A program made the position numbers and the translations under genes. A model generated the notes under the pieces. It searched no databases and was not told the origin of the DNA. It saw only the letters and a program-made list of their open reading frames with translations. Shown here in pieces: positions 89 through 26,925 of a stretch of DNA of 64,000 bases (position 1 is the stretch's first letter; each line of letters begins with the position of its first letter). This DNA comes from an uncultured Methylococcaceae bacterium (GTDB taxonomy: Bacteria > Pseudomonadota > Gammaproteobacteria > Methylococcales > Methylomonadaceae), in NCBI GenBank assembly GCA_903945605.1, contig CAJAWH010000036.1:1-64000 (forward strand), written 5' to 3'.

Positions 89-742
89 CTATTTGCTGGC
101 AGACGTTTTCTGTGGGTGATATTTCTGCTTATGCAACTTATCTTCAAATTCCTGCATCAAAGTTTCAAACTCCACATTATTGATTTGCAGAAGAGGCTCG
201 GAATCGACCAACGTATCAAAAAAACCACGCGTCTGACAAGCCTTATAGCCAGTGATAATTTGCTTGCTCACTTCAAAAAGCTTTACATTCTTGCTTTCAC
301 AGGTTTTAAGCTCCTCACTGGTAGATTTTTGCACATTCAACAAATTGCCATGCTCAACAGTCAGATCATTTTTAGCTTTGTTCAAGGCATTATACTTGCC
401 AATGACTTCCTTCAACCTATCGGTGGTGGCATCTAATTTGGCTTGCAGATCGGCGTTTGTGGTTTTTTCCGCCACCAAGTCATTTTCCAAACCGGTCTTG
501 GCAGACAATGCATCGGCTTTTTCCTTTTCGGATTCTTTTTTCAACTTGTCCAAATCAGCCAGCGTCTTATCATTTTCTGCCTTCAATTTGTCACGCTGCG
601 CGGTCATATCCTGCACCATCGCCTGCAACTTATTGACAATTTTGGCATTGCCGCCTTTTTCCGGTGCGGCATACAGATCAGCGGAAAAGGCACAGACAAA
701 CAATATTGCCGCCAGTGAACGTCTTGTAAGGATGAGCATCAT
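89..742 (-). CDS. Periplasmic coiled-coil protein, last gene of the TonB/ExbBD-porin operon
   Basis: This 217-residue protein opens with two arginines and a hydrophobic stretch ending in YAA, which is a Sec signal peptide. Residues from about 35 to 150 are rich in K, E, D, L and A in heptad-like spacing, so a long coiled coil is likely. The C-terminal 60 residues are less regular and contain two cysteines. It is the last gene of the operon and its ATG overlaps the porin stop codon as TAATG, so it is translationally coupled to the porin. I do not recognise a named family. From context it may be a periplasmic spacer or scaffold for the porin and TonB-like protein, which is inference. A second ATG directly follows the first. 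Confidence 0.85.
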   Translation of the reverse strand: MMLILTRRSLAAILFVCAFSADLYAAPEKGGNAKIVNKLQAMVQDMTAQRDKLKAENDKTLADLDKLKKESEKEKADALSAKTGLENDLVAEKTTNADLQAKLDATTDRLKEVIGKYNALNKAKNDLTVEHGNLLNVQKSTSEELKTCESKNVKLFEVSKQIITGYKACQTRGFFDTLVDSEPLLQINNVEFETLMQEFEDKLHKQKYHPQKTSASK

Positions 743-2496
743 TAGAATCTCGTATTGATGTCAAGTTGCAGGGTGTCTATGCCCCATTTAGGCCCAGTGA
801 TCACATCTGTGCTTAACCATCTGCCGGTCAGCCAAGTGTTTTTCATGATGCCGTAGTTACCGCCCATCGACCAACCTTTAGCATTGGTGCCGCCCAAATG
901 GAAATCGGAGTCGGTATAAGCATCTAAAACCGCGTTGGATTCTATATAACGGTATTGCGCGAACACGTTCCATTGGCCATTACGGTCAACTTTAGGCCAA
1001 CCAGCATCCATGCGTACTTGCCAAGCAGTAGTGCCGCTGTTATAGGGGTTCAATAAAGCCGTATTGCGCATGACATTGCCAATATTTTTTGCAAAATCAC
1101 CCGCTAACACCACATGGTAAGGGGCAAACATCGCCATATTGTAACTGCCGTTAACATTGACAATCTTAAAGTCAGAAGCCAAGCCAGCCAGACCCACAAC
1201 ACCATTCGTTTCACAAATAGAGGTCAAGCTATTGCCGCCTTGCATAAACTGGGGAACAGATTGGTTATTGTTTGCTGTGTTAGTGCCACAATTAGAATTT
1301 AAGCCATTAACCAAGTTTTGGCTATTGTTAACCGAAGCTTTAATATTCTGATAATCATAATACGCAGCAGCCATACTGAACACATCTTGGTTATCGAAGC
1401 CCCATTCCAAGCCTGTTTGACCGCCAAACATCCATTTGTTATGTGATGATTGCGATTGCGAGAACGCCCCGCCTGCCGTGGCGCGGTTATTGATTGAGTC
1501 TTGTAACGGGAACGCACCTACCGTCATAAATACCGAACGTGAACTGTCGGATTTTTCGGCAATACCGTCACTAGAGGACAAATTGTGCCGTGCTGTGCTA
1601 TACAAACCTTCAAACGACAAGTCAGCATCCCACACCAACTCACTGCCGCCAGTGAATTCACCACCGCCGACAAACCAAGGGTTTTGGGTACGCCCACCTG
1701 CTACGGTCAACCATTTGTAGCCATCCGTGTCAACCGCTTCGTATTTCAAGAAAGCACGATCCAAGTTGAACTGATACTGTCCGCCGTAATTGCCCAAGGT
1801 TTGGTTGGTGGAAATAGGGTTAGGGATATTACCGGTAGCCAAACGGATGCCGGTTTTTAAACTATCGTTAATTTTGGCATCAATCGCCAAGCGCAACCGC
1901 TCCCTAAACCACTGCCTGCCTGTAGTGGTATTATAAAAAGCGTCATTGGAAAGATCATTAATAGCCGATGCGCCGTTATTAATCGCTTGATAATTGTAAT
2001 AATAGCCACTAGCACCAGGTGCGTTATTACCTGGGGCCATATAATCGCCTTGCGAACGCAAACGCAAATCCCCAGACAACTTAAAGCGGTTTATCCAATC
2101 CGGCAAAGCACTGGGCACGCCCCATTGTTGGGTTTTGGCTTCTTTAATGACATCTTGGGTCACATCAGCACGCAGCTCCGAACGCACTTGCTGGCGTATT
2201 TCGTCTTTTACAAAATCTGGCACATAAGGTACTCGCACCTCACCCGGCTCGGCAGGTGTGGCATCGGTCGCCCCGCCCGCTTTAGCTTGATTGGCTGCTT
2301 GCTTTTCGGCATCGGCTTCCGCCCGCTTAATCATCTCATCAGCCACTTTTTCAGTTAACACGCCTTGTTTGACTAATTCTTTAATCAGATTAGTTGTGGT
2401 GTTACGCAGTTTTAGAAGCTCCTCTTTTTCACCCGCTTGGGCCAGACTCACCAAACCACAAAGCGCAAAAGCCAGCAACTGCTGTTTATTGTCCAT
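742..2496 (-). CDS. Putative beta-barrel porin (Porin_5-like)
   Basis: The 584-residue product has a signal peptide ending in AQA, a short helical segment (about residues 22-70), an A/G/P-rich linker, and then a long region of alternating polar and aromatic strands ending in F. These are the marks of an outer-membrane beta-barrel that uses the BAM pathway. The strand-rich part (GDLRLRSQGD, WFRERLRLAIDAK, TGIRLATGN) resembles the putative porin family near ExbB/ExbD/TonB operons. A conserved-looking segment, VRVPYVPDF at residues 87-95, sits between linker and barrel. There is no plug domain of a classical TonB-dependent receptor. Transported substrate is unknown. The gene is 23 bp from the tonB-like gene and overlaps the coiled-coil gene. 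Confidence 0.85.
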   Translation of the reverse strand: MDNKQQLLAFALCGLVSLAQAGEKEELLKLRNTTTNLIKELVKQGVLTEKVADEMIKRAEADAEKQAANQAKAGGATDATPAEPGEVRVPYVPDFVKDEIRQQVRSELRADVTQDVIKEAKTQQWGVPSALPDWINRFKLSGDLRLRSQGDYMAPGNNAPGASGYYYNYQAINNGASAINDLSNDAFYNTTTGRQWFRERLRLAIDAKINDSLKTGIRLATGNIPNPISTNQTLGNYGGQYQFNLDRAFLKYEAVDTDGYKWLTVAGGRTQNPWFVGGGEFTGGSELVWDADLSFEGLYSTARHNLSSSDGIAEKSDSSRSVFMTVGAFPLQDSINNRATAGGAFSQSQSSHNKWMFGGQTGLEWGFDNQDVFSMAAAYYDYQNIKASVNNSQNLVNGLNSNCGTNTANNNQSVPQFMQGGNSLTSICETNGVVGLAGLASDFKIVNVNGSYNMAMFAPYHVVLAGDFAKNIGNVMRNTALLNPYNSGTTAWQVRMDAGWPKVDRNGQWNVFAQYRYIESNAVLDAYTDSDFHLGGTNAKGWSMGGNYGIMKNTWLTGRWLSTDVITGPKWGIDTLQLDINTRF

Positions 2497-2519
2497 ATCT
2501 ATACCTGTTTAAATAGCTG

Positions 2520-3185
2520 TTAAATTGTGTCTTTAATCCGTAATTTGACGGGTTGTTCCATGCCAGCGGGAGGCTGCTCATTAAATTTTTTCAATTTGCC
2601 CAACACCTTGGTCAACAAGGCATCAATCTCGGGGTCATTGCTGCCTTTGGCCACTTCAATGCGCTTTACCGTGCCATCAGGTTCTATCCAAATATCAACA
2701 ATCGCTGTAAAACCTTTTTTACGTAATTCGTCTTTTTCGGACAACAGCTCTTGCACTTCATTTTTGATAATGCCGTGATACCAAGCAAATGGATTGCCGC
2801 CCTCACCGCCGCCCAACAGACCCTTGCCGCCTTTACGGCCGACCAAACCAAAACTGTCCGAACCGGCGCCTCCTTCAGCATCCAAGCCCAAATCACCCGG
2901 TGGTGGCTCTGCCACATCCGGCAACGGTTCCGGCTCCGGTTCCGCCTCAGGCTCCACCTGCTCCATTTTTTCTTCTGGCGGTGGTGGCTGCTCCACTTTA
3001 GGGGGCGGTGGTGGCGGTGGCGGTGGCTTAAGCACCGTGATAGGCTGGATTTTCTTCTCCTTTTTCTCAGGCTTATCTTCCATGTTGCCAATAAATTTAA
3101 CAATCAAAAATATTGACACCAGCAAAACCACAACACCTATTAAAGTGGGTATATAGGCCTTAAAACTCTTTTTATGTGTTGTCAT
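2520..3185 (-). CDS. TonB-like energy transducer
   Basis: This 221-residue protein has one N-terminal transmembrane helix (about residues 13-32), a highly charged proline-rich linker with a run of nine prolines and alternating E/P stretches, a glycine-rich segment, and a C-terminal TonB/TolA-type fold (IVDIWIEPDGTVKRIEVAKG, then paired helix and strand). That is the architecture of TonB, which spans the periplasm and passes inner-membrane proton-motive force to an outer-membrane partner. It lies 10 bp after exbD and 23 bp before the porin gene, so the porin or the neighbouring two-partner secretion pair is the likely partner. No TonB-dependent receptor with a plug is in this operon. The family call is firm; the partner is inference. 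Confidence 0.88.
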   Translation of the reverse strand: MTTHKKSFKAYIPTLIGVVVLLVSIFLIVKFIGNMEDKPEKKEKKIQPITVLKPPPPPPPPPKVEQPPPPEEKMEQVEPEAEPEPEPLPDVAEPPPGDLGLDAEGGAGSDSFGLVGRKGGKGLLGGGEGGNPFAWYHGIIKNEVQELLSEKDELRKKGFTAIVDIWIEPDGTVKRIEVAKGSNDPEIDALLTKVLGKLKKFNEQPPAGMEQPVKLRIKDTI

Positions 3186-3195
3186 GCCGATGGTC

Positions 3196-3600
3196 TTATT
3201 TGACTAAATTTTGGGTGACAAGACCGATTTGCGTGATGTCCAACTTACCTAGCAGAGCCAGTACATTGACAATATTCACATATTGCACAGCGGCATCGCC
3301 TTTGATGACCACCGGCAAGGCAGGGTTGACCGCTTTGTATTGCTGTAAGGATGACTCCAGTTGCTCCATAGTCACCGGATAAGTGTCCAGAAATATTGTA
3401 CCATCAGCAGTGATCGTGATCGCCTTGGTTTGTGGCTTGGACAAGCTGGGGGCATCACTCGCTTTAGGCAAGTTGACGGTAATGCCTTGCACTGCCGCTG
3501 TAGTCATCAGAATGAACACCACCAGCAACACATAAGCCAAATCCAGCATGGGCGTAACGTTAATCTCATCGTACGCTGCGTTTTCTTCTTGTACTTTCAT
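3196..3600 (-). CDS. exbD: ExbD/TolR-type biopolymer transporter subunit
   Basis: The 134-residue protein has a short cytoplasmic start, one transmembrane helix containing the expected aspartate (INVTPMLDLAYVLLVVFIL, Asp20), and a periplasmic domain with the ExbD/TolR strand-helix pattern (KAITITADGTIFLD, then LPVVIKGDAAVQY). ExbD forms the proton-conducting stator with ExbB and drives TonB. The membrane aspartate needed for proton passage is present, so the motor looks functional. Gene order exbB-exbD-tonB with gaps of 19 and 10 bp supports one complex. TolR is an alternative name for the fold, but the adjacent TonB-like gene favours ExbD. Confidence 0.9.
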   Translation of the reverse strand: MKVQEENAAYDEINVTPMLDLAYVLLVVFILMTTAAVQGITVNLPKASDAPSLSKPQTKAITITADGTIFLDTYPVTMEQLESSLQQYKAVNPALPVVIKGDAAVQYVNIVNVLALLGKLDITQIGLVTQNLVK

Positions 3601-3619
3601 GACCTGTTACCCGCTGCCC

Positions 3620-5437
3620 TTAAGTATGTTCTTCGGCCAACTTGGCAACGAATTCATCCACGAAAACATGCAAATCCGCTGTCACCACTTTAATTTGGCT
3701 ACCCAGATAGTTATAGCCAAACAGTGCCGGAATCGCCACCGCCAAACCGACCACCGTTGCCGTCAAAGCCGCAGCAATACCTGGCGCAATCGCGTTTACG
3801 TTAACTTCACCGCTCACCGCAATCGCCGCGAAAGTGATCATTACCCCAACCACCGTACCCAGCAGACCCAAAAACGGGCCACCGGAAATGGCTATGGTCA
3901 ACAACACCATTTGTGAATTTAATTTTTGCAGTTCGCGCACCACCACAGCATCCATTGAAGCCTTGACAGCCGCCATTGCCGAAGCGCTCAATAAGTTACC
4001 CGACTGTCCTGAAGCACCAGTGGGCTTTGACAAGCGCTTGTTCATTTCTTGCACACCGACATGATAAATGCGGTACAGTGGGGAACCAGAAAAATCGTCA
4101 TGTTGTGCGGTCAAAGAAAACAGCAAAGGCGATTCATCAAACGCTTCTTGTCCGCTTACATCCTGCTTATCCAAGGTGCTGAAATCACGGGACCCCAACT
4201 CGGCGAAAGCTTCTTCAAAACGTTTGTTATATTTAGCCACACTATTTAACACAATGCCTTTAGTGATCATCACCAAGGTACTGATAACAAACATCACCAT
4301 CAAAATACCGATGATCACCCAACCGTCAATGGTCACGTTCTTCAGGGTGGCCACCACATAAGACTCGCCACCTTCCTCACTGTCCGGGCCGGCATCTTCA
4401 TCATAAGTCAGGATAGCCGAACTGGCCCCTTGCATATCCACATCAAACTTTATGGCGTTGGCATCACGGGCCACTTTATACAAGGTCAATTGGTCCAACA
4501 AACCATTAAAGCCCCGTGCGGCAATCGTATCGGCACCCAACGTGATTTCACCGGACAACTCGGGCAACGCATAAGCAAAATTACCGGCAGCCACACCATC
4601 CACATACAGCAGCAATTCGCTGGCATTGGCAACCACTGCCACGTTATGCCAAGCACCAGGGGCCAACGTGGCAGTCCCGGCAAATTCCTGTTTACCAGCA
4701 CCGCCAGTCACTTCAAGCACGGGTGTCTGATCTTTAATGGCTAACGTGAAACCCGCTGCAGGGGCAACACGCTGCAACACCACCGCATTGGTTTGTGGTT
4801 GGTCAAATTTTATCCAAGTCGAAAAAGTCCAGCCGTTGGCAGGGGCCATTTGCAGGGAAGGTGCAGCCGGTATCCTGACCACCTGACCGCCCTGAAATTG
4901 CGCAGCCGAGCCTATCAAACCACTATCCACCAGTGTCGCGGTGGCTTCGGAAGGATTATTGGCATTAGCGGTCAAATCTTTAATGGCTGTGCCGGTGAAC
5001 GAATAATCCAGCACCTCATTGACGGCAAACGAACCTGGGGCATCCTGTGCGTCAACCGCTTCGGCATTGGCGTAATACAACCAGAAAGCCGGTTCCGGTT
5101 GGGTGGCAATGTCGGCAGGCAACTTGACCCAAATCAAGGCCATTTCGTTTACGGTGTCGAGCTTTTCGATAAAGTACTTTAGAGGGGTTTTCTCATCACC
5201 CGCCAATACCCGAAAATCTTTGCCCTGCTCAGCCAGTTCAGCAAAATACGCAAAATTGCCGGTATGCAAACGCACCAAAGCAAAAGCATCTCCCGGAATG
5301 GTTTCGCCTGATTGCTGAAGTTTTTGTTTGTCCAAGGTGATTTTTTTCTTGTACCCCCAATCATCATTCCACCAAGCGGTCGCCATATTAGGCAACAAAA
5401 TCAAACATATCAGTAAAAGCCAAAACCGTTTCATCAT
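3620..5437 (-). CDS. ExbB/MotA/TolQ proton channel with N-terminal DUF2341 and LamG-like domains
   Basis: At 605 residues this is more than twice the usual ExbB length. A signal peptide (residues 1-21) leads to a tryptophan-rich DUF2341 segment (WWNDDWGYKKKITL), then a concanavalin/LamG-like domain at about 150-330 (FSTWIKFDQP, WHNVAVVANASELLLYVDG, FNGLLDQLTLYKVAR), an acidic linker, a transmembrane helix near 369-392, and the ExbB core with its conserved two-helix block near 500-570 (GPFLGLLGTVVGVMITFAA). The extra domains should face the periplasm, where LamG folds typically bind sugar or protein. It is the first gene of the exbB-exbD-tonB-porin-coiled-coil unit. A second ATG 3 bp downstream has a better-spaced GGGAA ribosome site. 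Confidence 0.9.
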   Translation of the reverse strand: MMKRFWLLLICLILLPNMATAWWNDDWGYKKKITLDKQKLQQSGETIPGDAFALVRLHTGNFAYFAELAEQGKDFRVLAGDEKTPLKYFIEKLDTVNEMALIWVKLPADIATQPEPAFWLYYANAEAVDAQDAPGSFAVNEVLDYSFTGTAIKDLTANANNPSEATATLVDSGLIGSAAQFQGGQVVRIPAAPSLQMAPANGWTFSTWIKFDQPQTNAVVLQRVAPAAGFTLAIKDQTPVLEVTGGAGKQEFAGTATLAPGAWHNVAVVANASELLLYVDGVAAGNFAYALPELSGEITLGADTIAARGFNGLLDQLTLYKVARDANAIKFDVDMQGASSAILTYDEDAGPDSEEGGESYVVATLKNVTIDGWVIIGILMVMFVISTLVMITKGIVLNSVAKYNKRFEEAFAELGSRDFSTLDKQDVSGQEAFDESPLLFSLTAQHDDFSGSPLYRIYHVGVQEMNKRLSKPTGASGQSGNLLSASAMAAVKASMDAVVVRELQKLNSQMVLLTIAISGGPFLGLLGTVVGVMITFAAIAVSGEVNVNAIAPGIAAALTATVVGLAVAIPALFGYNYLGSQIKVVTADLHVFVDEFVAKLAEEHT

Positions 5438-5566
5438 TATTTCCCATTTAATTTGATAATTGAATTATCACTTAAATTAGTTACAAAAGTATTAATTAAC
5501 CAAGCGATAACATTGGTCAACTGATTAAATACACATCAAATTGTCTATTATAAAAAGCCATTAAGG
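5438..5566 (-). promoter_or_regulatory. Promoter region of the exbB operon with a GATAATT palindrome
   Basis: The 129-bp gap between the tpsA stop and the exbB start is AT-rich. It contains a perfect palindrome, GATAATT-G-AATTATC, at 5455-5469, about 20 bp upstream of the exbB start codon. The position suits an operator or the 5' end of a promoter for the downstream operon, so the ExbB-TonB genes may be expressed separately from tpsA. No clear -35/-10 pair was assigned. Confidence 0.4.
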
Positions 5567-8500
5567 TCAGTTTTTACAACCATGTTCATCCTTACACTTG
5601 TTGCTGCCCAACACTTCAACGCTTAACACCCCTAACGCAGCTTGTTTGCTTTTTGATTTTCCGTCATCAGCCGAATCAATAGACGCTTGGGCCACTTGGG
5701 TGACGTTGGCCGCCACATTGCTGACCCCCGTCAAACCTGCCGCGACACTCGCCGAAGCTGCCGGAACACCGGTGCCCACACCGCCAACCTGAATGTTATT
5801 GGCACCAATGACCGCCGTTGCGGAAATGGTCACGTTGTTTGCACCAATGCCTGCCTCACCGGCATTAACCACGCCGCCCGGGGCAAACAAATAAGCATTG
5901 CCACTGGGCAAGCCATAATTGGCCACCGCCCTGATACCACTGCCCGACACAGCCGGAGCGATAAGGGTCTGCTTGAGATCATTTTGGTAGCTCACCGTGA
6001 CAGTCGGCACCGACAATGCCGATTTGGCACCGCGCCCCGCATCGATGTTGCCGGATGAAGACCAAATCAATACATCACCACCACCTTGTGTAAATACCCT
6101 TGACTGGTTCACCTCAAAATCGCCACTGGAGAAGGCATTAATGTTGCCCGCCGCTTGGGTGATAATACCCAAATCAGTGGAATCTTTGACCAACCCAGGG
6201 AAAACAAAAGGCAAACCGGCATTAATAGAGCCGCCTGGCACCGTCAAATTAATATCCCCACCCTGCTTGGTTTGAATGGTGCTGAAGATCAAACTTAAAT
6301 TTCCGCTCCAAGTCGTTCCTGGGAATAAATTATTAATAGCCGCAAAACCACTGGCATTACCAACACTTTTATCTGCAGCAGATGCGCTACCAGCAATAAT
6401 CAGCTCGTTATACAGCACTGCGTCCAAAGCCACATTTAATTGCGGCTGTATTGACAAATAAGTGTCAGGGCTTAATCCACCAAATATGACCAAAGCCTGT
6501 GCATCAGTCACTGAAGCATCACCCGGCAAAGTCCTGACAAAATCGCCTATTGTTTTTGTCACTGAAGACAGCACACTATCATAGGTCAATTTAATACTGC
6601 CATTAATACTGCCATCCGGCAATTCTTGGATATTTGGCGCAAATGGCAACCCCTTAGTTGCCTCAGCTTTTAAAAGGTCAATCAAGCTTTGTGGCATGGA
6701 TTTTTTATAGCTATTGGCCGGGTCGCTCAAATAAGCAATAAAATTGGCATAATCCGGAGTTTTATTATTATTAAGACCGGCAATTACCGACAGACTAGCC
6801 CCGCCCGTGGGCAAGTTGGTTTGTGAGATATTACCTGTGGATATAATCCCATCGGACAAACCCAAATCAATATTCCGACCACTTTTAACCAACAGCGCCC
6901 CTGGCCCGTTAACCGCAATCTTGTCATTCAAATTACTCGAATCCAGCGAACCGATAACATTCAGCGCCACCGGATTGGTAATGTCCCTGCCTGCTGATAC
7001 CACTGACACCATCGATGCATCATTGTTTTGTAAAGTTGCATTGAGATTGACAATATCCCTGCCCGCTTGGATGATGCCCGACTTGCCGACATACAAATTG
7101 ACTTGGTTGATATCCCCTTGTTGGGTCACCAGATAAGCAGGCTGGTTATCATTCGCATGTAAGATAGGCGCATTGGTCGTATATAAGGCCTTAGTGCTGG
7201 AGTTCTTCACTGGGAAGGAAAAATAGCCATAAGTGATGCTAGGGTCAGTCATGCCGGGCACATAAGCAGTCGGCAAATTGGCAATTGGAATATCCAACAT
7301 GGTGATCAAACCGGGTGTGGCAGAAGAAATGCCGGTGATATTATCCCTTGCCAACACCACCAAAGAAGACTGGTTGGAAGGGAAAAGGTCAATATTCCCC
7401 AGCAGCGTGCTCCCGCCATAAGCAACCGCCTGCAGCGATGCCGGATAAATGCTGGCTAAGCCGGTAAGCGTATCATTAAATCCATTAGCCGCCGCGGCAA
7501 CTGAATTGTCCGTACCTAGCACCACATCCCCCGACAAAGAACTGGCGCTAATGCCACTCGTGCCGGTGTAACTAAAGAACTTGGCGGTGCCAATCATAGG
7601 ATCACTGACCGCTGACAAACTGAGCCCATCACTCGCCATCAACGTTATATTGCTGTTGCCCAAAAACAATTGCGGGCCAGCAGTCAATGGAAGATTGTTG
7701 CCCGTGCTATTGCTGCTGCCGGTAATTTGACCACCCGCGGTGATAGTGCCAGTACCCTGCCCTAAATAATAAACCCCACCACTAATATCACCTCCCGCAC
7801 TGACTGCCAAATTGCCGCCGCCGTTCACCTCAATCACATTAGTGGTAAAAATGGGGTTGCCATTGGCATCCACCGCCGGATTACCGTTGGCATCCAGTTT
7901 GGGCTGCCCAACCTCTTTGCCACTGGTGGGCATAATGACCGACAAATCACTAATGCTGCCTTGGGCATTAATAGTCACGTTACCGCCACCAAATGAGCCA
8001 AAATTCTCCGCAAAATTGGCTGAGTAACCGTTGCTGGCGAAGCCAATGCCCCATGTGGTGGGGTAAACATCACCGGCAACTTTATTTTGTGGTGGTTGCG
8101 AGAAATACAACCACGTTGTATTGGTTAAAGCGTTATTGATGATTTGGTCAGTGCTGACACCCACTATATTATTATCAGTATAAACATTTAGGCTACCCCC
8201 ATCCGTCGGGTAATCCACAAATGGGAAAACACCACTATTAGCCAGCTGTGCAGTTGTGCCGTAAGGGTCTGTAGCCGACACCCTACCACCGATATAAACC
8301 GTGGCATTCTGATTTTCTAGGACAATATTTCCACCGGAGGCCAGCGTTATATTGCCTGTGCCCGTCCTGATATAAGTCTGGCTGCCATCCGAGGAACCGA
8401 TCGCCAAATCTTTACTGCCAGCCGCCAAATCAGCGGCATTGGCGGCTACCGTTGCCAAAGTATTGGCTGAATTCATATCAGCTCCAGAAACCAATTGGTA

Positions 8501-11500
8501 AGACCATGAATCCACAGGCATGATTGACAAATTACCTTGCGGGTTAAGACCAAAACCATCGGTTAAAGAGCCTTGCATAACCAAGCCCTCTGATGCCCTT
8601 ATGACCAAATCCCCAGGTAATATGGAATGGGCATTACCGGACGCATCGGTATAATTCTGCCAACCATAAAAATCCCATGTCGTCCCTAACCCTAACGTCA
8701 AAGTGCCGTTGTAATCCAATTCAACACCTGGTCGCAACACGATGCCAGAACCCAAGCTAACTTGGGCGGTTTCCATATAGCTGGCCGTATCGGACTGCAC
8801 TAAGTTAATAAAGTCCGTAGTAATGTTGCCAGTGGGCAGCATATCTATATTGTCTATATTATCTATGTCTGCATTGCTATACTGTTTCACCGCCTCAGCA
8901 TAATACTGGCTGTAACCACTGACCGCACCCAACACAGGGTCAATATTGACACCGGTACCATTCCTTAGTGCCCGCAACGTCACCGAGCCACCTTTGTGGT
9001 TAGCCGCACCACTGACATCAATAACCGAACCCTGCTGCACACTCACCGCAGCATGGGAACTTGTGCCTGCACCCAAGCTAGACAGCAACACCGTGCCACC
9101 ATTGCCGGTTGATCCTTTCGCCAACAACTGCCCGCCATTAGCCAGAGCAACCGAGTTGCCTGCATAAAGGTTGATCGTGCCGCCTTGTCCACCGTTGGCG
9201 TCCAATGTGCCGCTCAAGTTGATATTGCCTTTATCGGCGACCAATGTGATGCTATTGGCCACCACCTGCTGCCCAGCTGCCTGCACAATATCCGCATCCC
9301 GGGAACGGAATGCAATGCTGTTGCTAATCCCTGCTGCCGATAGTGCCGCCATAACCGTATCAAAATTACCCGCGCCAAAATAGCTCGCTTGGTCGATTTG
9401 GGCGCTGCCACCGTGCGCCAATATTTTTCCTGACATATCGACCGCTTGACCGGGCGCCTTTAAAATCAAAGTGCCTGCGCTGGCACTGCCGCCACCGGCA
9501 TTCAAATTAATGCTGGAACCCGCCTGCAAATGCACCGAACCGACATCGGCAATGGCACTAAAACTCCCGCCGGGGGTATATTGCACAGAATTGGCAAAAA
9601 CATCGGCACGGCCCGCCAAATCAATTTGCGCGTTTGCCCCCACCACCAAATCGTTCTTTACAGATTCAAGGCTCAGCTTGCCAGAAGGCATAGTGACTTG
9701 GGTATTAAAATTAATACCATCCGCCAGCACACTGATTTGCCCGCCATAATAAGGGGTGACCGGTGACACAGCCTTACCGGCACTACTAAAAGTGGCCTGA
9801 TGCCCAGTTGCATCAATCACCATATTGGCACCACCCACCCCCGTCAAATAATCGGCGGTCACATTAAAATCCCCTGCAACCGTCAGGCGGCTTTTTCCGT
9901 CGGCAACAAAGGCATTGCCAGCACCATCCTGATGGGCAACATTAATATTAGTGGCAGCAAAGCCATTAATGGCAAAATTCCCCGCCCCTTGCGTGTAACT
10001 ATTTGTCGATATATCAAGCTGGCCACTGCCCGTACCCGCAGTGGTTGATGCCGCATTTGATGAATTCTGTACAGAAATGCTGTCCGCTTGGATTTTAACC
10101 ACCTTGCCCGCATTATTAAATCCGGAAATGGCCGCCGCATTTAACTCCAACTTACCAAAATGTAAAGCGGACACGCTGCCGTTGTTACCAACAACCCCGA
10201 CATTGCCATAAAAATTAATGCCGCTGCTGCTATTGATCAACAACTCATCGACATTTAACAAAGCCAACTGGGCGTTGCTCAACTTTAACGCATTATCTGA
10301 CAGGCCGCTGACCTCACCCAAATCAATGCCATTGGTGTTCAAGCTTAACGAACCACCCTTCATATCGATACTGCCCAGCACACTGGCCTGACCCGGGGTA
10401 TCCAGCAACACTGATTTTAATGCACTGCCTGAACCGTTGATGGGCAAACCATTAATAGTGCTGTCTGCAGCTATGTTCAAATTACCATTAGGGTCAGTGC
10501 TTGAGGGAGTCCTGGTCACCGTCACCTGATTATCAGCCGACACCCGCAATAATGCACCATTACCTGTCACATTCAGCACCGTGTCACCGGTATTGACCGG
10601 CGCACTGGCAGTCAATACGGCCCCTTTTTGCACGTCAATCAGCGTATTTGCCGCCACCAACAAATCCTTGGTTTGTAAATTGACACCTTTTTCAAAAGTG
10701 ACCGTATCACTATTAACAGTAATGTCAGTTTGTCCGGTCACATTATTAAACTGGCTTGTTCCGCCCAAAAACAAGCTGTCCAAACCCAGTGCATTCAGAT
10801 TGCTGGCCAAAACTTGTAACTGGTTAGCCACCGGCTGGGTGCTTAAGGTATTCACCACATCAATAGCTGCAGCCGTTATATCAACCTTCCCGCCCCTGCC
10901 CCCGGTCGGGGCCGAAGACTTGATAGTGCCTTGCAACAATAAAGAGTCCTGTGCCTCTAAAAACAACTGACCACTGTCTTTAGGCAACAACGGGATGCTG
11001 GCGGCGGCATTGGCCAGTGCTTGCAACGTAAAGAAATTATTCGCCGTCTGCACGACATAAGCAGAATGCGTGCTGATTTGCTGGCTATTCTCGATCATGA
11101 AAGCAGAATTGAGTGAATCGCGGGTGCCGGTTGCGGTATTTGTGTAATAGCCAGAAACAATAGGCACACCATCCGTCCGTTGGCTGTTGACCACAAAGCC
11201 TTGGCTATTGCTAAGCGGGGTGATCAGATAAGCGCCCGGCAGCAAGGCATAACTCGATGGCATAATAGTATAAGTGCCTGCTGGCAAACCGTTGCCGCCG
11301 CTTAAATAGACACTGCTACCGGCCTGATAAAGGGCTTGTTGGCTGGCGCTAAGCAGCGATAAAGCCGAACTTTGCAGCGGATCGAACGGTGACAAAGTAG
11401 ACGCCAACACCGGCACCACAGCAAACCCGCCATTATAAGAAGGGCTGCCCGGCGCCAAATAATCATTACTACCGCCAATCCCCGACCTGAATTCATAAGC

Positions 11501-14500
11501 CATCAGATCACCGCCACCCCTAATATCGACCACGCTGCCCTGGGCCATATTAATATTCGGTGCAGCCAACGTCACCTGCTTGCTCTGGATGGGATTGTTT
11601 TCAGGTTTGCTATTAAAGACAATGCTGTATTCACTATAAGGGTATACCCAACTAGAGCCACCTAAGGTAGTGCCAAACGGTATCACCGTGCTGACATCGG
11701 CACCGGAAACGGATGTCAAACTACCACTGCCTAATGTCAGGTCACTGGTTGCCAACAAATTGATAGAACCGAACGGCGCTTTCAAGACACCATCCTGATT
11801 GATGGTCGCCGCACTAAACGTCAGTGAACCATTGGCAGAAAGCGGTGAGGGGTCGGTGTTAGTACCGCTGATGGTGATAACCCCTTGCGGATTTGCAGCA
11901 GCATCGACAACATTAAAACTAAACTGCGACAAGGTGCTTGGATAAATCTGGCTAGCCTGCAAATTAATATTGGCCATGGTGGTCATAGAACCAATATAAC
12001 CGGCATAAACATCAAGCACATTGTTATTCACGGTTTCTTGCTGGGTATTAAGCTGACCATTCACGCGCAGATCATGGGTGTTTTTTAACGTGATGTTGGC
12101 AAAACCACCCCAAACCGTGGCACCTGTCAAATCTGTCCACTGGGCTTGGCTAGTAAAATTGCCGTTGCCGCTATAAGGGGTGCTTGCAGTGGTGGAAGTC
12201 GTCCACGCTGGGGAGGTAACATCCAGATAAGCCGTGTTTAAACTGACGTTGCCGGAGCTGGCACTGGCATCGGCGCTCCAGCCAATGATGCTGGCGGTGA
12301 TGTCAATGTTTGACCGGGCAGTCAAACTCACATTGCCTTCAAAATTGACCACATCAGCATTAAACCGGACATCATCAAAGCCCCCTTGGCTAATCATCTG
12401 GCTAGTGACCGTTGCCTTGCCATATAAACTATCCGCTGCAAAAAGATTAGTGGTGTTCTGATCATTTGCATAATTGTCTAAATTGTCACCGTAGCGGAGC
12501 TTACTATCCAACTGCACCGCTTGGTTTTGGTTGATATTGATCACATAAGGCTCAATCGGCGGAAAAGCCGCGCCACTGCCGCCCGGGCTGTGGTCTACGT
12601 TATCATGGGCATTGGTCAGGGTAACGTCCAGCTGGCCATTTTTATTGCTGGCGGAACCGGCAAAACCGGACAAACTGCCATCCAACACCATCCCCGCATC
12701 TGCCGTCAAACTAATTTGACCGGCATCAGAACCGACATTTTTAGCCGCAAACCCCGCGACCAAAGCACCGTTTGAACTGACCACCGGCAAATCCAATTGT
12801 GCGCTGGTGCCGGACACATCAATCGACGCTTGCTTATCCAAGCGGTTCTGTATCACCACATAACCACGGTCGGCCTGCAACGCCACTGTGCCGCCATTCA
12901 ACACACTACCGGTAACTATTCCGGGGGAATTGGGGACATTATAAGCAACCGCCCCTTTCGCCAATAATTGCGCATTACTGCCCACCCAAATGGCTTTGTT
13001 CGATTCGTACTGGGTATTGTTGCCATCTCCGACCAACAAAAGCTTGATCGAACCATCCGGGGTATTAATCAAGCCATCAACAAACACGCCGCCCTTTGAC
13101 GAAGACGTTAGGCTAACGTTAGCATTATTATCCGCCACAATGGAGCTGCCCGTTTCCATGCTCACCCCCAACGCCCCGGTCAGTGACAGGTTAACAGCTT
13201 GCCTAAGTGTATCCGCCTGTTGCCATGCCTGAGCCAAGCCCTGTAACTGGCTGAAACCATCCATCGATGCGCCATTACCTTGATTAACATAACCGCCTTG
13301 TAAAATCCGGTGTTGTTGGGTCAGGTGCAAATGGACATCACCCGTCACCGTCAAAGCCGAACTGTTTTCGCCATTGCCATTGCCCACCAAATTGATCGAG
13401 CCAAACCCGCCATTTTCGGCAATTTTCAGATTGCCGTTTTCAGCCGTCAACAACAACACGTTGTCATTAACCGGCACAGTTGCGCCCGAAACCAAGATAT
13501 TGCTGCTGTTAAGCGTCAAAGTGCCGCCTTGCGACAAAGCATAAGCCGATAACTGACCATCCAAATGCAACCTGGCCGTACCCGACAAAATCGTATTGGA
13601 AGTCAGGCTAATGCTGCCGCCCGTGCCAGCGGTCAGCACATTCGCCACCGAATTGGCAGCACCGCCGTTGGCCTTGATGACCGAACCGGCATTAAGGAAC
13701 ACATCGCCTTGGGCACTGATATTGACACTGCCGCCATTAATCAATAAAGGTGTGGTTGGCATAGCCGCGCCACTCACTTGCGCATAATCATTGACCCAAC
13801 GACCGGACACATCAATACTGCTGTGCTTGGAAACCGTGACGGTTTCCTTGCCATCATTGAAAATGCCTGCATCAGCCGTCAGATTGACCTTACCGCCCGG
13901 CAAATAAATATTGCCTTCCACATCAATAGTTTTGCCCTGTATGGCTAATGATCCCGCCGATGCCAAATTAGCATGGGGCGACAAAGTCACGCCACTGTCA
14001 ATAATGACATTGCCCACCGTCTGCACACTGATATTTTGCAAACCCGACTTATTGACAAAATCTTGGGAAAACACCAGCGGACTAGGATTGCCGCCCACGC
14101 TAGGGAACACATCATTGACACCCAACTGCAAAGCCGTCTGGGTGGCTGCAAAATCAATCACCTGAGCGGAATAAAAAGTCGCGCTGTCGGTGCTTGACAA
14201 ATTATTGAAGCTAAACGTGCCGCCTGTCGGCGCCGTGCTGGCACTGCGCTGGTAAGGCCCGCTCACTGCACCTGCCTGCAAATCGCCGCTCCAAGCCAGC
14301 TTGGGGGCAAAGATATTCAGCGCCCCAGCATTCAAGCCCTGCACATAGCCTTGCTCAAAGTGACCCATCGAATAGGCCGGTGTGTAATACCTGATATATT
14401 GGCTTGGATCGGTGATCCATTTAGGATGGGATTCAACAATCACCCCCGCCACAGCGGTGTAAACTTGATTAGGGTCAGCTTGGCCAATATTGACCAATCG

Positions 14501-16282
14501 ACCAAATTGGTCAACCAATTGGCTGGATAAAATATAACCGTCCTGATAAGCAACCGAACCACCCGACACATTGATTTTCGCGCCGCTGTCCACTGACACC
14601 GCACCGTCAGAGGCAATATTGACCGTGCCGCCATTGGCCAAGCGTTCTTCCACGGTTCTGGCAATCCTGCCTATCGAACCACTGACATCAAGAATGGTAT
14701 TGGCTTGCCTTAAATCCACAAAAACCGTCGTACCCAATAACGGGCCATTTTTTTGCAACGGCGAATCACGCAAGTCATAACTCTGCACAGAAATGGCCGC
14801 ATCATTGCGTGCCATAGCCACTTGGATGTTTTGTATGCCCGACACATCAATCGATGCGCCTTTTTCCAACAGCACCTTGCCTGCATTGGCGGAACTATCC
14901 ATGGTATGGACGGTTAACAGGCCAGTGACCGGATCAATGTTAGCGGGTGTGGTGGTGGCAATAATGTTGACCTGGGCGCCCGGCGCAACAATAGCCGCCC
15001 CCGCATCTGTCCCGTTAGCCCCTTGCATATCCACCTTATCCGCCACCACTTGAATTAACGATTGCGCCTGTGCTTGGGCATCGTAAGCGGTCGGGCCACT
15101 GTAATCAGCAATAATTTCATTAACCTTGGTGGCAGTCTCGTTTTGTGCCAGTAGCTGGCTATTGCTGGTATCCGGCAAAATTTGTGTCAGGCTGGCCGCC
15201 CCCATATTAACGGCTGACTGAGTGCCCAGACCATCACCCGCATCGGCGCTGCGCACCGTCTGGTTGGCCACTAAATTGCTGCCTTGGTAAGCATGGTTTT
15301 CTTCAGCCAGCAAACGGATGGAACCATTCTCATTAACCGAAGTGGTGGCGGTCAAACGACCTTCTTGGTTGACCACAAAACCTTGCAAAGTGATATTGCC
15401 TTGTTTGGCCAACACATCGCCGATATTGGACACTTTGCCACCGGTGTCAACCTCCACCACCATGCCATGAAACGGGCTTTTGGCATCCGCAGCTTGCAAG
15501 TACACCTTGTCCTGGCTAGCGACCATGATCACCTGACCAAAATTATCAGTGCTGATGGACCCATCATTTTCAACCGTGGGCCCAGCCAACACCACCAAAC
15601 CATCGTTGCCGCTGGCATGGATGTTGGCACCCTTTTGGACAATAATGGCACTGTTTTTATGCGCTGCAGTAGCCGCGCTGCTGTTGTCATTACCTAAACT
15701 TGGCTGTGGAGGATTGGCGCTGCCTTGCTGGGTGATGCCTGTCAGCAATGCATCATCAGTTATGGCAAGATTGGAAGCAATCAGAGAATGTGTGTCAACC
15801 ACGGAATGTTGGCCGAACACAAAACCGTCCTGGTTATAAAGGTAGACTTGCCCATTAGCCGTGATGCTGCCCATAATTTGACTGGCACCACCACCAGAAA
15901 CACGGTTCAATACCACAGAAGAACTGTCATGTTCCTTAAAAATGACTTGGTAGCCCGCAGCAATATTAAAGTTCTCCCATTGCAGCGTAGTCGGGCCAGT
16001 CTGGCTGCTGGTGTCAACCGTTTCGGTAGTGCCCTGATGGGTAATAATGGCTTGATGGTTAATATTCGTGTTTGGGTCTTGGCTAGGGTCAATAGCGGGC
16101 AATCCAGTGGCGGTTGCCAAAGCTGCCGCCATATCGGCTTCACCGTGCGCATAGGCTACATGTAACGGGGACATCAACAGGCCACCCGCAATGGCAACAC
16201 GGACACAAGCCGCCAAAGGTGACAACCTGAACACTTCGTCCAAGGGTGAATGGGTGATGCTGGATTTAATGACCATAACCAA
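5567..16282 (-). CDS. Giant filamentous haemagglutinin-like two-partner secretion exoprotein (TpsA)
   Basis: The 3571-residue protein has a long N-terminal signal region and then a TPS secretion domain (WENFNIAAGYQVIF, VVLNRVSGGGASQIMG, ITANGQVYLYNQDGFVFG) at about residues 95-175. This is the part recognised by FhaC-type transporters. The rest is a repetitive beta-helix rich in G, S, N, A and V, with many GxxINLxA-type turns. The end contains IGANNIQVGG, typical of this subgroup, and finishes with a two-cysteine loop, Cys3563 and Cys3569. The product should be a very long surface or secreted fibre, probably an adhesin. The tpsB transporter gene lies directly upstream. No CdiA-type VENN motif, toxin tip or immunity gene is visible. 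The ORF is intact over 10.7 kb. Confidence 0.92.
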   Translation of the reverse strand: MVMVIKSSITHSPLDEVFRLSPLAACVRVAIAGGLLMSPLHVAYAHGEADMAAALATATGLPAIDPSQDPNTNINHQAIITHQGTTETVDTSSQTGPTTLQWENFNIAAGYQVIFKEHDSSSVVLNRVSGGGASQIMGSITANGQVYLYNQDGFVFGQHSVVDTHSLIASNLAITDDALLTGITQQGSANPPQPSLGNDNSSAATAAHKNSAIIVQKGANIHASGNDGLVVLAGPTVENDGSISTDNFGQVIMVASQDKVYLQAADAKSPFHGMVVEVDTGGKVSNIGDVLAKQGNITLQGFVVNQEGRLTATTSVNENGSIRLLAEENHAYQGSNLVANQTVRSADAGDGLGTQSAVNMGAASLTQILPDTSNSQLLAQNETATKVNEIIADYSGPTAYDAQAQAQSLIQVVADKVDMQGANGTDAGAAIVAPGAQVNIIATTTPANIDPVTGLLTVHTMDSSANAGKVLLEKGASIDVSGIQNIQVAMARNDAAISVQSYDLRDSPLQKNGPLLGTTVFVDLRQANTILDVSGSIGRIARTVEERLANGGTVNIASDGAVSVDSGAKINVSGGSVAYQDGYILSSQLVDQFGRLVNIGQADPNQVYTAVAGVIVESHPKWITDPSQYIRYYTPAYSMGHFEQGYVQGLNAGALNIFAPKLAWSGDLQAGAVSGPYQRSASTAPTGGTFSFNNLSSTDSATFYSAQVIDFAATQTALQLGVNDVFPSVGGNPSPLVFSQDFVNKSGLQNISVQTVGNVIIDSGVTLSPHANLASAGSLAIQGKTIDVEGNIYLPGGKVNLTADAGIFNDGKETVTVSKHSSIDVSGRWVNDYAQVSGAAMPTTPLLINGGSVNISAQGDVFLNAGSVIKANGGAANSVANVLTAGTGGSISLTSNTILSGTARLHLDGQLSAYALSQGGTLTLNSSNILVSGATVPVNDNVLLLTAENGNLKIAENGGFGSINLVGNGNGENSSALTVTGDVHLHLTQQHRILQGGYVNQGNGASMDGFSQLQGLAQAWQQADTLRQAVNLSLTGALGVSMETGSSIVADNNANVSLTSSSKGGVFVDGLINTPDGSIKLLLVGDGNNTQYESNKAIWVGSNAQLLAKGAVAYNVPNSPGIVTGSVLNGGTVALQADRGYVVIQNRLDKQASIDVSGTSAQLDLPVVSSNGALVAGFAAKNVGSDAGQISLTADAGMVLDGSLSGFAGSASNKNGQLDVTLTNAHDNVDHSPGGSGAAFPPIEPYVININQNQAVQLDSKLRYGDNLDNYANDQNTTNLFAADSLYGKATVTSQMISQGGFDDVRFNADVVNFEGNVSLTARSNIDITASIIGWSADASASSGNVSLNTAYLDVTSPAWTTSTTASTPYSGNGNFTSQAQWTDLTGATVWGGFANITLKNTHDLRVNGQLNTQQETVNNNVLDVYAGYIGSMTTMANINLQASQIYPSTLSQFSFNVVDAAANPQGVITISGTNTDPSPLSANGSLTFSAATINQDGVLKAPFGSINLLATSDLTLGSGSLTSVSGADVSTVIPFGTTLGGSSWVYPYSEYSIVFNSKPENNPIQSKQVTLAAPNINMAQGSVVDIRGGGDLMAYEFRSGIGGSNDYLAPGSPSYNGGFAVVPVLASTLSPFDPLQSSALSLLSASQQALYQAGSSVYLSGGNGLPAGTYTIMPSSYALLPGAYLITPLSNSQGFVVNSQRTDGVPIVSGYYTNTATGTRDSLNSAFMIENSQQISTHSAYVVQTANNFFTLQALANAAASIPLLPKDSGQLFLEAQDSLLLQGTIKSSAPTGGRGGKVDITAAAIDVVNTLSTQPVANQLQVLASNLNALGLDSLFLGGTSQFNNVTGQTDITVNSDTVTFEKGVNLQTKDLLVAANTLIDVQKGAVLTASAPVNTGDTVLNVTGNGALLRVSADNQVTVTRTPSSTDPNGNLNIAADSTINGLPINGSGSALKSVLLDTPGQASVLGSIDMKGGSLSLNTNGIDLGEVSGLSDNALKLSNAQLALLNVDELLINSSSGINFYGNVGVVGNNGSVSALHFGKLELNAAAISGFNNAGKVVKIQADSISVQNSSNAASTTAGTGSGQLDISTNSYTQGAGNFAINGFAATNINVAHQDGAGNAFVADGKSRLTVAGDFNVTADYLTGVGGANMVIDATGHQATFSSAGKAVSPVTPYYGGQISVLADGINFNTQVTMPSGKLSLESVKNDLVVGANAQIDLAGRADVFANSVQYTPGGSFSAIADVGSVHLQAGSSINLNAGGGSASAGTLILKAPGQAVDMSGKILAHGGSAQIDQASYFGAGNFDTVMAALSAAGISNSIAFRSRDADIVQAAGQQVVANSITLVADKGNINLSGTLDANGGQGGTINLYAGNSVALANGGQLLAKGSTGNGGTVLLSSLGAGTSSHAAVSVQQGSVIDVSGAANHKGGSVTLRALRNGTGVNIDPVLGAVSGYSQYYAEAVKQYSNADIDNIDNIDMLPTGNITTDFINLVQSDTASYMETAQVSLGSGIVLRPGVELDYNGTLTLGLGTTWDFYGWQNYTDASGNAHSILPGDLVIRASEGLVMQGSLTDGFGLNPQGNLSIMPVDSWSYQLVSGADMNSANTLATVAANAADLAAGSKDLAIGSSDGSQTYIRTGTGNITLASGGNIVLENQNATVYIGGRVSATDPYGTTAQLANSGVFPFVDYPTDGGSLNVYTDNNIVGVSTDQIINNALTNTTWLYFSQPPQNKVAGDVYPTTWGIGFASNGYSANFAENFGSFGGGNVTINAQGSISDLSVIMPTSGKEVGQPKLDANGNPAVDANGNPIFTTNVIEVNGGGNLAVSAGGDISGGVYYLGQGTGTITAGGQITGSSNSTGNNLPLTAGPQLFLGNSNITLMASDGLSLSAVSDPMIGTAKFFSYTGTSGISASSLSGDVVLGTDNSVAAAANGFNDTLTGLASIYPASLQAVAYGGSTLLGNIDLFPSNQSSLVVLARDNITGISSATPGLITMLDIPIANLPTAYVPGMTDPSITYGYFSFPVKNSSTKALYTTNAPILHANDNQPAYLVTQQGDINQVNLYVGKSGIIQAGRDIVNLNATLQNNDASMVSVVSAGRDITNPVALNVIGSLDSSNLNDKIAVNGPGALLVKSGRNIDLGLSDGIISTGNISQTNLPTGGASLSVIAGLNNNKTPDYANFIAYLSDPANSYKKSMPQSLIDLLKAEATKGLPFAPNIQELPDGSINGSIKLTYDSVLSSVTKTIGDFVRTLPGDASVTDAQALVIFGGLSPDTYLSIQPQLNVALDAVLYNELIIAGSASAADKSVGNASGFAAINNLFPGTTWSGNLSLIFSTIQTKQGGDINLTVPGGSINAGLPFVFPGLVKDSTDLGIITQAAGNINAFSSGDFEVNQSRVFTQGGGDVLIWSSSGNIDAGRGAKSALSVPTVTVSYQNDLKQTLIAPAVSGSGIRAVANYGLPSGNAYLFAPGGVVNAGEAGIGANNVTISATAVIGANNIQVGGVGTGVPAASASVAAGLTGVSNVAANVTQVAQASIDSADDGKSKSKQAALGVLSVEVLGSNKCKDEHGCKN

Positions 16283-16479
16283 TGCCTTTATGCCTATTTG
16301 TTATACAACCGGAAAACAAAAAATATCAACCTGTGTCACTGCCTTGGCAAAACAACAAGCTCAAATAAAAATACCCGCCTACTCAAACTAAGCTGGGTGT
16401 AAACCATTACAGCGGTTAGCTACAGACCATGCCCGCGACCGCCCGTGCTGGGCAGATCGCATGACATTAGCCCCCTAAA

Positions 16480-18096
16480 TCAAAATTCAGTGGCGACATT
16501 AAAATGGAATTTAGGGTCACCGCTTTGGATAGTTTGTAAAGACAACATCGGAAAACCCACATCCAAAGCACCCGACAAATATTTGAGCATCCGGAAACGC
16601 ATGCCCACACCGGCACTCGCCAAATTGTAGCTGGTCTTGGTGTTATGTCCTGGGATGGGATCCAAAATCCAACCTGAACCACCATCTAAAAATGCCAGTG
16701 CCTGCAGTTTGTCCAATGACTCCACACTCAACGGGGCAAGATGCGGCGAGCGCAACTCCATCGAAGCAATCACGCCACGGTCAACTAAAGTCTGGGTTTC
16801 GTAATAACCACGCACGCTTTGCATCCCACCAATGGACAATTGCTCGTTGCTGATGATCGGCGAATCGGCCACCTGACCGTTCATACGGCCAAAAAATTGC
16901 ATCCCTAAAGGCAATTCGTGGGTGTGGTTAAGGTCGGCCTTGAAAATACTATAATTGGCGCGGGCATTATATCGTTTGTTTTCAAACTCCGATTGGCTGT
17001 TGCCCACGCCACGCACCGAGAAACTGACCCCCACATTAAATGCGGTCAAGGTGTTTTTTTGTTTAACCGAACCACCATATTGCGCCATAAACGGCGTATA
17101 GCTGATAGGCGTGACAATACCTTGGCTGAGGGAATTGGCAGCCGAAAGGTTTTCCCTAAAAAACTTATGGTCTGCACCCACCGTCAAGCTGTGTGTATAG
17201 GCATCCAAGCCCGGCAACGGCTTGACCAAGCGCACCCCATAGATGTCACCGGCACCCAACACCAAAATCGACCCGGCATTGGCGGCGGTGTTCGATGACG
17301 AACTGACCGCATACAATGCCAAGCGAGTGGAGGTATTGAATAAAGGCATGGCATAAGTGCCGGCCCAAACATCAACCTGCTGGCTATTTTCCGGCGCCAC
17401 CTGATACATCAGCGAGGCACTGTGCATTTTCTGCCAAAGGTTATCGTAATGGACAGAAGAAACCAAGCGCAACAAACTGGTGGAAGCGGTGTTACGACCA
17501 TTCAACTCCACCTTGCCATGCAAGGGCAAATTGTCCTTTACTTTTAGGTCAACCTCTAAAGTGCCCGGCGTTTCCCCTGCCCGCAACACCGGGGTTATTT
17601 TCCGGTCCGGACTTTGGCCGGCCAATGCGTTCAGCTGCTTCTGCATAACCGGCAGGTTAGGCACATTGCCTTCCGCCAACTCAGGCACACCGGCCTTGAT
17701 CTGTTCCAAGGAGAAATAATTGGCGTCCTTGACCCTTAACCGCGCTATTTTGCCTTCGACCACCTGCAAATACGCCACACCTTTGTTGACATATTGCTCC
17801 GGAATATCGACAGAAACGGTCTGGTAGCCTTTGCCCCGATATAACTTTTCCAAGCTTGCACGGGCATCTTCAATGGTGGCCATAGTTTTTTTAGGCCCCA
17901 AAAACGGATACACCGTGCGCTCCAGTTCTTTCCGCTCGAGTAAAGTGTTGCCTTTGACCCGCAGCTCATAAATATCAAAAGCATCGGTCGCATTGGTTTC
18001 TGGCTGGTCTGCATACACGGCATCTGCACACAACAGCATCAGAAAACATATCAAAAGTTTTTGGGCAGCATTACGCTTAAATAGGTTTGTTCGCAT
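16480..18096 (-). CDS. ShlB/FhaC/HecB-family two-partner secretion transporter (TpsB)
   Basis: This 538-residue outer-membrane protein has a signal peptide ending in VYA, two POTRA-like domains at about 38-115 and 116-190 (FDIYELRVKGNTLLERKELE, VAYLQVVEGKIARLRV), and a C-terminal 16-strand-type barrel ending in F. The barrel holds the lid-lock motif as SVRGYYE near residue 425. TpsB proteins bind the TPS domain of their partner and pass it through the barrel. The only candidate partner is the adjacent giant TpsA gene, 197 bp downstream on the same strand. The family is firm. The 198-bp spacer before tpsA is long enough for a separate promoter. Confidence 0.92.
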   Translation of the reverse strand: MRTNLFKRNAAQKLLICFLMLLCADAVYADQPETNATDAFDIYELRVKGNTLLERKELERTVYPFLGPKKTMATIEDARASLEKLYRGKGYQTVSVDIPEQYVNKGVAYLQVVEGKIARLRVKDANYFSLEQIKAGVPELAEGNVPNLPVMQKQLNALAGQSPDRKITPVLRAGETPGTLEVDLKVKDNLPLHGKVELNGRNTASTSLLRLVSSVHYDNLWQKMHSASLMYQVAPENSQQVDVWAGTYAMPLFNTSTRLALYAVSSSSNTAANAGSILVLGAGDIYGVRLVKPLPGLDAYTHSLTVGADHKFFRENLSAANSLSQGIVTPISYTPFMAQYGGSVKQKNTLTAFNVGVSFSVRGVGNSQSEFENKRYNARANYSIFKADLNHTHELPLGMQFFGRMNGQVADSPIISNEQLSIGGMQSVRGYYETQTLVDRGVIASMELRSPHLAPLSVESLDKLQALAFLDGGSGWILDPIPGHNTKTSYNLASAGVGMRFRMLKYLSGALDVGFPMLSLQTIQSGDPKFHFNVATEF

Positions 18097-18442: not shown

Positions 18443-18478
18443 AAAAAAAAACCGGGCTAGCCAATTTGGCTAGCCCGG
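18443..18478 (-). terminator. Rho-independent terminator of the PstS-like gene
   Basis: An 11-bp perfect GC-rich stem (18452-18462 with 18468-18478, CCGGGCTAGCC paired around AATTT) is followed, reading the minus strand, by nine T residues (the A-run at 18443-18451). It sits about 65 bp past the stop codon of the gene ending at 18543 and should separate that gene from tpsB. Confidence 0.88.
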
Positions 18479-18505
18479 CTTTATCCAAAGCTTAGCGTAC
18501 AACCC

Positions 18506-22158: not shown

Positions 22159-22160
22159 CC

Positions 22161-24053: not shown

Positions 24054-24055
24054 CA

Positions 24056-25579: not shown

Positions 25580-25584
25580 GCATT

Positions 25585-26796: not shown

Positions 26797-26896
26797 GCAC
26801 CTGAACATAAGGTGTTTTATCAGCGTTCGCGAAAATTGCCCAGCACAATTCATCGCTACAAGCGGGGTCAGCGTAATGGGTTCAAATGCTTGCAAA

Positions 26897-26913: not shown

Positions 26914-26925
26914 CAATAAAAAAGC

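Follow-up and report, generated by a model that had tools for sequence, protein, structure and literature searches.

A two-partner secretion locus accompanied by its own Ton/Tol-like motor and porin genes in a methanotroph of the Methylococcaceae

The stretch of DNA analysed here (the window; 64,000 nt of contig CAJAWH010000036.1, from a methanotroph of the Methylococcaceae) carries a two-partner secretion (TPS) locus in which the genes for a giant exoprotein, TpsA, and its outer-membrane transporter, TpsB, are joined by genes for an ExbB-ExbD-TonB-like set, a porin and a coiled-coil protein. Open reading frame calls place these seven genes (tpsB, tpsA, exbB, exbD, tonB-like, porin and coil, together referred to below as the module) in tandem on the minus strand, running from 18096 to 89 (Table 1). 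Gaps of 197 nt (tpsB-tpsA) and 129 nt (tpsA-exbB, where pattern matching detected no terminator-like site) are followed by tight packing from exbB to coil (19, 10, 23 and -1 nt). The initial annotation had described a one-strand TPS/Ton/porin block at 742-18096 that lacked a plug-bearing TonB-dependent receptor. The block is real and all seven frames share the minus strand, although the coil gene (89-742) lies just outside that interval. Family searches likewise identified no Plug-bearing receptor in the block, with six Plug-domain frames elsewhere in the host genome; Plug, the domain that sits inside the 22-strand barrel of TonB-dependent receptors, gave no match in the porin or in TpsB.

Table 1 Features of the module and its surroundings in the window.
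Feature	Length (aa)	Position (nt)	Strand	Family matches and remarks
TpsB outer-membrane transporter	538	16480..18096	-	POTRA_2 + ShlB (Pfam/NCBIfam)
TpsA exoprotein	3571	5567..16282	-	TIGR01901 near N-terminus, DUF3739 near C-terminus
ExbB/TolQ-type protein	605	3620..5437	-	DUF2341 + Laminin_G_3 + MotA_ExbB
ExbD/TolR	134	3196..3600	-	family match 1.5e-26
TonB-like protein	221	2520..3185	-	TonB_2 4e-07
Porin_5 family barrel	584	742..2496	-	Porin_5 1e-176
Porin residues about 87-98, EVRVPYVPDFVK		2203..2238	-	extended module-specific motif; candidate TonB-contact segment
Periplasmic coiled-coil protein (coil)	217	89..742	-	by position, counterpart of PA0697
Promoter-like match		18404-18377		pattern match only
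Terminator-like hairpin		18448..18482	-	strong; splits PstS-like gene from tpsB unit; pattern match only
Secreted PstS-like protein	634	18543..20447	-	TIGR02136 1e-07; associated, not core
Type II secretion operon gspC-gspM		21616..32204	+	divergent neighbour

TpsA and TpsB have the features of a type Vb pair in the broad sense. TpsA, the start of which is probably an ATG two codons inside a TTG, carries an N-terminal TPS (haemagglutinin activity) domain (TIGR01901, 5e-17, residues 100-174) and DUF3739 (2e-30), while TpsB consists of a signal peptide, ~13 disordered residues, two POTRA domains and a 16-stranded Omp85 barrel. An AlphaFold2 (AF2) model of TpsB (mc59ccee3c3d3; predicted local distance difference test score, pLDDT, 88) has CdiB and FhaC as its closest solved folds. 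However, the model contains no helix between signal peptide and POTRA1, where FhaC-like TpsBs have an N-terminal H1 helix and linker, H1 being described as the plug of the barrel (PMC9355242). With the end of the signal peptide placed by a simple rule, the region before POTRA1 has a median length of 16 residues in 32 module TpsBs and of 48 in 15 ordinary TpsBs, two of which are likewise short (Mann-Whitney p = 4e-5). Module TpsBs are predicted from the model and from N-terminal lengths to lack the usual N-terminal plug region, and they form one tight group (E < 1e-130 against their own profile; > 1e-40 for ordinary TpsBs). The locus thus shares with FhaB/FhaC and CdiA/CdiB the TPS domain on TpsA and the two POTRAs and 16-strand barrel on TpsB, but FhaC-type TpsBs have H1 and no motor, whereas the module always includes a motor and its TpsB has no predicted H1. 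Many TpsAs, including that of the window (5567-5750), end in a recurring LGxLSVEVLGFG-like tail after DUF3739. Anchoring by a Cys hook, a model that comes from HMW1/HxuA, was considered for TpsA and rejected: the tail in the window contains CKDEHGC, but two Cys occur within the final 60 residues of only 4/43 relatives, so that the pair is not a family feature.

The ExbB/TolQ-type protein, the nearest public relative of which (94% identity) is from a Methylococcaceae metagenome-assembled genome, has a secreted DUF2341 and LamG domain on the N-terminal side of ExbB. The TonB-like protein has a single transmembrane helix, a Pro/Glu-rich spacer and a C-terminal TonB_2 domain. Structure searches found no solved LamG-ExbB, only the motor parts of TolQ/ExbB giving matches, and no solved relative of the TonB-like protein. 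In a tree with E. coli references, in which branches are long and which was used solely to assess separateness, module ExbBs form a single clade apart from TolQ and ExbB (support 100/100). Alignment revealed conservation of the functional transmembrane Asp of ExbD (NVTPMLD) and invariant equivalents of E. coli Thr148 and Thr181 in module ExbBs, channel residues that suggest possible use of protons by the motor. Proton-channel threonines, ExbD aspartate and a TonB/TolA-like rod are thus common to the module, TolQ-TolR-TolA and ExbB-ExbD-TonB, from which the module differs by its separate clade, the large LamG domain and the residue equivalent to Glu176. This is Ala in 21 and Gly in four of the 25 module ExbBs and Glu in every TolQ/ExbB compared; in E. 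coli, Glu176 has been described as essential (PMC8599685). The motor is therefore named Ton/Tol-like here, rather than a Ton system proper; its NCBIfam scores are closer to TolQ/TolR than to ExbB/ExbD.

In an AF2 model of the porin (m635854d76fad; pLDDT 79), a helical periplasmic stalk at the N-terminus precedes a barrel of roughly 16-18 strands. The closest solved folds are OmpM1 (a weak match; 13% identity, template modelling score 0.42 by query) and OmpF, and overall the protein resembles open general porins; no peptidoglycan-binding domain was detected by family search and no classical TonB box was found. Between stalk and barrel lies a VRVxYVPxxVRxxIR-like segment, present in 39 aligned module porins, in 24 from Pseudomonas, in the porin of the second module of the host (contig C143; see below) and in G019, but missing from 7/7 Porin_5 paralogues outside the module. 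Tyr91 is invariant in the 39 aligned porins and replaced by Phe in G019. The segment is modelled without secondary structure (pLDDT about 56-75), as would be expected of a docking strand, and is a candidate contact site for the TonB-like protein. Action of the TonB-like protein on the porin, one of three targets offered in the initial annotation, gains indirect support, and no more than that, from this module-specific periplasmic motif. A second Porin_5 paralogue in Pseudomonas (L098, L148-L153), of ~400 aa, lies outside the module and is without the VxYVP segment.

Among 70 loci gathered by ExbB similarity, exbD follows exbB in 64/64, tonB in 58/58 and the porin gene in 56/56 cases where the contig permits, and the coil gene is found 3′ of the porin gene in 51/53, an arrangement far beyond chance. 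The position of the TPS genes is more variable. Gamma methanotrophs, and some beta/gamma lineages related to them, have tpsA between tpsB and exbB (tpsB upstream in 14/15 upstream regions read), in alphaproteobacteria, Verrucomicrobia and Pseudomonas tpsB is directly before exbB and tpsA is elsewhere or downstream, and in sphingomonads tpsB lies between tonB and the porin gene. Independently of ExbB, 249 genomes were drawn evenly from the phylum, and six of them have DUF3739. LamG-ExbB is present in exactly the same six (scores fall from 372 to 124 bits before ordinary TolQ/ExbB), as is strong full-length Porin_5 (weak partial matches in two further genomes), while TpsB is found in 101/249; the Fisher p value for this co-occurrence, 3e-12, is overstated because the genomes are related. 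In a sample of 79 genomes of Pseudomonas (the genus of G130, assigned by PUMA3-type gene content), LamG-ExbB, strong Porin_5 and DUF3739 each occur in the same 24. Here the distance between tpsA and exbB is no more than 5 kb in seven genomes, about 55 kb in one and 0.2 Mb or more in eight, while in a further eight the two genes are on different contigs, so physical linkage does not explain the co-occurrence; that unlinked genes are inherited together points strongly to functional dependence. DUF3739 is also present in 22/22 genomes picked from ExbB loci, including five with unrelated genes upstream of exbB, and no LamG-ExbB genome without a DUF3739 TpsA was identified in the genomes sampled, in which the module is an obligate unit. 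The idea of one dedicated machine, put forward in the initial annotation, is well supported by this co-inheritance (6/249, 24/79, 22/22), and the outcome it had named as counting against it, ExbB-TonB-porin genes occurring mostly without TpsA/TpsB, is the opposite of what the 249 and 79 genomes show. One genome (G200) has one LamG-ExbB, one porin and three DUF3739 TpsAs; one module for several TpsAs speaks for a shared export machine. In G281, from the Pseudomonas sample, an intact ExbB is accompanied by disrupted frames for both DUF3739 (631 aa) and the porin, through either joint decay or sequencing errors.

The host genome provides an internal control. A full second module, with unchanged gene order, is located on contig C143 (L103), and the only two DUF3739 TpsAs of the host are those of the two modules. 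Two of its four ExbB-family genes encode the LamG-ExbBs of the modules. A third TpsB, on contig C138, has neither DUF3739 nor ExbB adjoining; thus, within one genome, ordinary TPS dispenses with the motor, whereas TPS of the DUF3739 kind is equipped with it.

The association itself is not new. In P. aeruginosa, the VreI regulon listed by Llamas et al. in 2009 includes tpsA, tpsB, exbB2, exbD2 and PA0696, with the tonB homologue PA0695 adjoining; homologues of TPS, ExbBD and PA0696 accompany PUMA3 in several genera, and three tpsA clusters plus one tpsB-exbBD-PA0696 cluster, resembling the arrangement in G200, were also described (PMC2729926). A 2020 paper reports secretion of PdtA by PdtB, listing PA0696 as a putative porin and exbB2-exbD2-tonB4 as a putative TonB system, still uncharacterised (PMC7035377). 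The PUMA3 locus PA0690-PA0701 comprises pdtA, pdtB, exbB2, exbD2, tonB4, the PA0696 porin gene, PA0697, PA0698 (YbjN) and PA0699 (PpiC), and Pseudomonas G130 matches the published list (transposase-like gene, TpsB, DUF2341-LamG-ExbB, ExbD, TonB, Porin_5, coil, YbjN, PpiC, LysR). The core genes (tpsB, exbB, exbD, tonB, PA0696-type porin and coil) occur in this order in the window, L103 and G130. Both the window and the PUMA3 locus also have phosphate-binding-like genes and an operon for type II secretion close by. Unlike the PUMA3 locus, the window has tpsA between tpsB and exbB, its host has two copies, and YbjN and PpiC are not seen, the contig ending just after the coil gene. No ECF (extracytoplasmic function) sigma or anti-sigma family indicative of VreA/VreI/VreR was found among the window frames scanned, a scan that left out some short frames, and the module is therefore filed as the same core cluster only, not as a PUMA3 system. 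Leaving aside Faure 2013 and 2014, no paper outside those on PUMA3 was found to tie DUF3739 or LamG-ExbB to TPS. The gene cluster is thus already on record as a published, if neglected, association; what is added here is one TPS subclass with a TpsB predicted to be plugless, a motor clade of its own and a marked porin. The statement in the initial annotation that known TPS systems need no TonB requires correction as well. HxuA/HxuB/HxuC of Haemophilus influenzae likewise combines a TPS pair with TonB action at the outer membrane, although there TonB serves a receptor: HxuC is plug-bearing and the operon as described has no dedicated ExbB/ExbD/TonB, whereas the window has a private motor and a plugless porin.

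TPS is viewed as using no external energy, and type V secretion is taught as driven by folding alone. We judge the chances about even that the module defines a TPS subclass in which a dedicated Ton/Tol-like motor works via the porin to promote export or display of TpsA. On this reading the giant TpsA would be exported by TpsB as usual, through a transporter that may have lost the plug helix normally gating the pore. The ExbB-ExbD pair, apart from housekeeping TolQ/ExbB, would move the TonB-like rod with the proton gradient, and the rod would span to the outer membrane and grip the porin, most likely at the extended VxYVP segment. The resulting force or tethering might then be spent on export, anchoring or release of TpsA; both the contact between TonB and porin and any work done on TpsA are inferred, while the parts, their order and strict co-inheritance, the TpsB without a plug region, the motor clade and the porin motif are observed. 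A fuller version, proton-driven type V secretion in which the motor, via TonB, porin and plugless TpsB, moves, holds or releases TpsA, is possible but doubtful, and the active export or retraction of the fibre envisaged in the initial annotation has no support and goes beyond what sequence can show. Several points weigh against a motor that works on TpsA. Reconstitution of type V export has succeeded in the absence of an energy source (review: PMC5422565). P. aeruginosa mutants with a single insertion in tpsA, tpsB, PA0696 or the tonB homologue lose none of their VreI-induced virulence towards zebrafish (PMC2729926), so that motor and TpsA are not linked by any phenotype. Ala or Gly in place of Glu176 might reflect a motor that is weak or altered in function, contact between motif and TonB is a candidate only, the porin N-terminus has low model confidence, the genome samples are not phylogenetically independent, and the co-inheritance fits import of a ligand as well as export.

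Import is the main rival, though we consider it unlikely: by analogy with HxuABC (PMC4873976), surface TpsA would bind a ligand, possibly a phosphorus source, and pass it on to the porin, which would be opened or energised by TonB. The candidate TonB segment is indeed on the porin rather than on TpsB, and in P. aeruginosa the cluster responds to phosphate starvation by induction and has as its neighbour a type II system for phosphatase secretion (PMC7035377, PMC9769906). In P. fluorescens, a PstS-like (DING) protein is exported by the type II system Hxc (PMC2225411), and in the window the neighbours of the module include a type II operon and a gene for a PstS-like protein. However, Pho-box-like matches in the window are at chance (76 versus 78 expected), and phosphate control of its genes was rejected on this basis. 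Further, neither a Plug domain nor a classical TonB box was found and the porin is like open general porins, it is tpsB, rather than tpsA, that constantly adjoins exbB except in gamma methanotrophs and lineages related to them, and the module in G200 serves several TpsAs. The preference for TolQ/TolR in NCBIfam scores, together with an attachment porin, OmpM1, as best solved match, would instead suit a mechanical tether in the manner of Tol-Pal, in which motor, LamG domain and porin stalk hold the outer membrane at the fibre site without a role in translocation. Given that the OmpM1 match is weak, that the porin has no detected peptidoglycan-binding domain and that the tree puts the module outside TolQ, this seems quite improbable. 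Least probable, in our view very much so, is shared regulation only, with the Ton set serving other receptors and merely co-expressed with the TPS genes. The six Plug-domain frames elsewhere in the host genome could encode such receptors and the P. aeruginosa genes do form one regulon (PMC2729926), but co-occurrence with DUF3739 TpsA is strict in the 249 and 79 genomes, even when unlinked, most TpsB genomes are without the module, and the host has two further ExbB-family genes.

With a TPS subclass never found without its own motor, whether outer-membrane protein export is ever energised becomes directly testable, also in harmless methanotrophs such as Methylomonas sp. LW13, which has the module (L033). 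A motor acting on TpsA through the porin would also provide a likely job for exbB2-exbD2-tonB4-PA0696 of P. aeruginosa, listed without function since 2009, and for the DUF2341-bearing ExbB homologues singled out as unexplained in 2025 (PMC12505986).

Beyond the module, the PstS-like gene upstream of tpsB (product of ~550-630 aa) is found at both host copies (L103 1-609 in the second) and at most Methylococcales loci read (L154-L168), its products matching phosphate-binding families weakly. A 165-aa frame without a family match (21021-21518, plus strand) has similar frames in L154, L155, L157 and L164, on the opposite strand to the pstS-like gene and tpsB. A viral or mobile origin was rejected, as no relative of the ExbB was found in viral contigs. 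In several methanotrophs (L016, L027, L041, L052, L069) the coil gene is followed by a gene for a ~800-aa protein with a lipoprotein-like start, possibly repeat-rich; the window contig ends soon after the coil gene, before this position. Elsewhere in the window, 57516-59168 encodes a 550-aa protein in which an exosortase (EpsH) is fused to a CAAX-protease-like domain.

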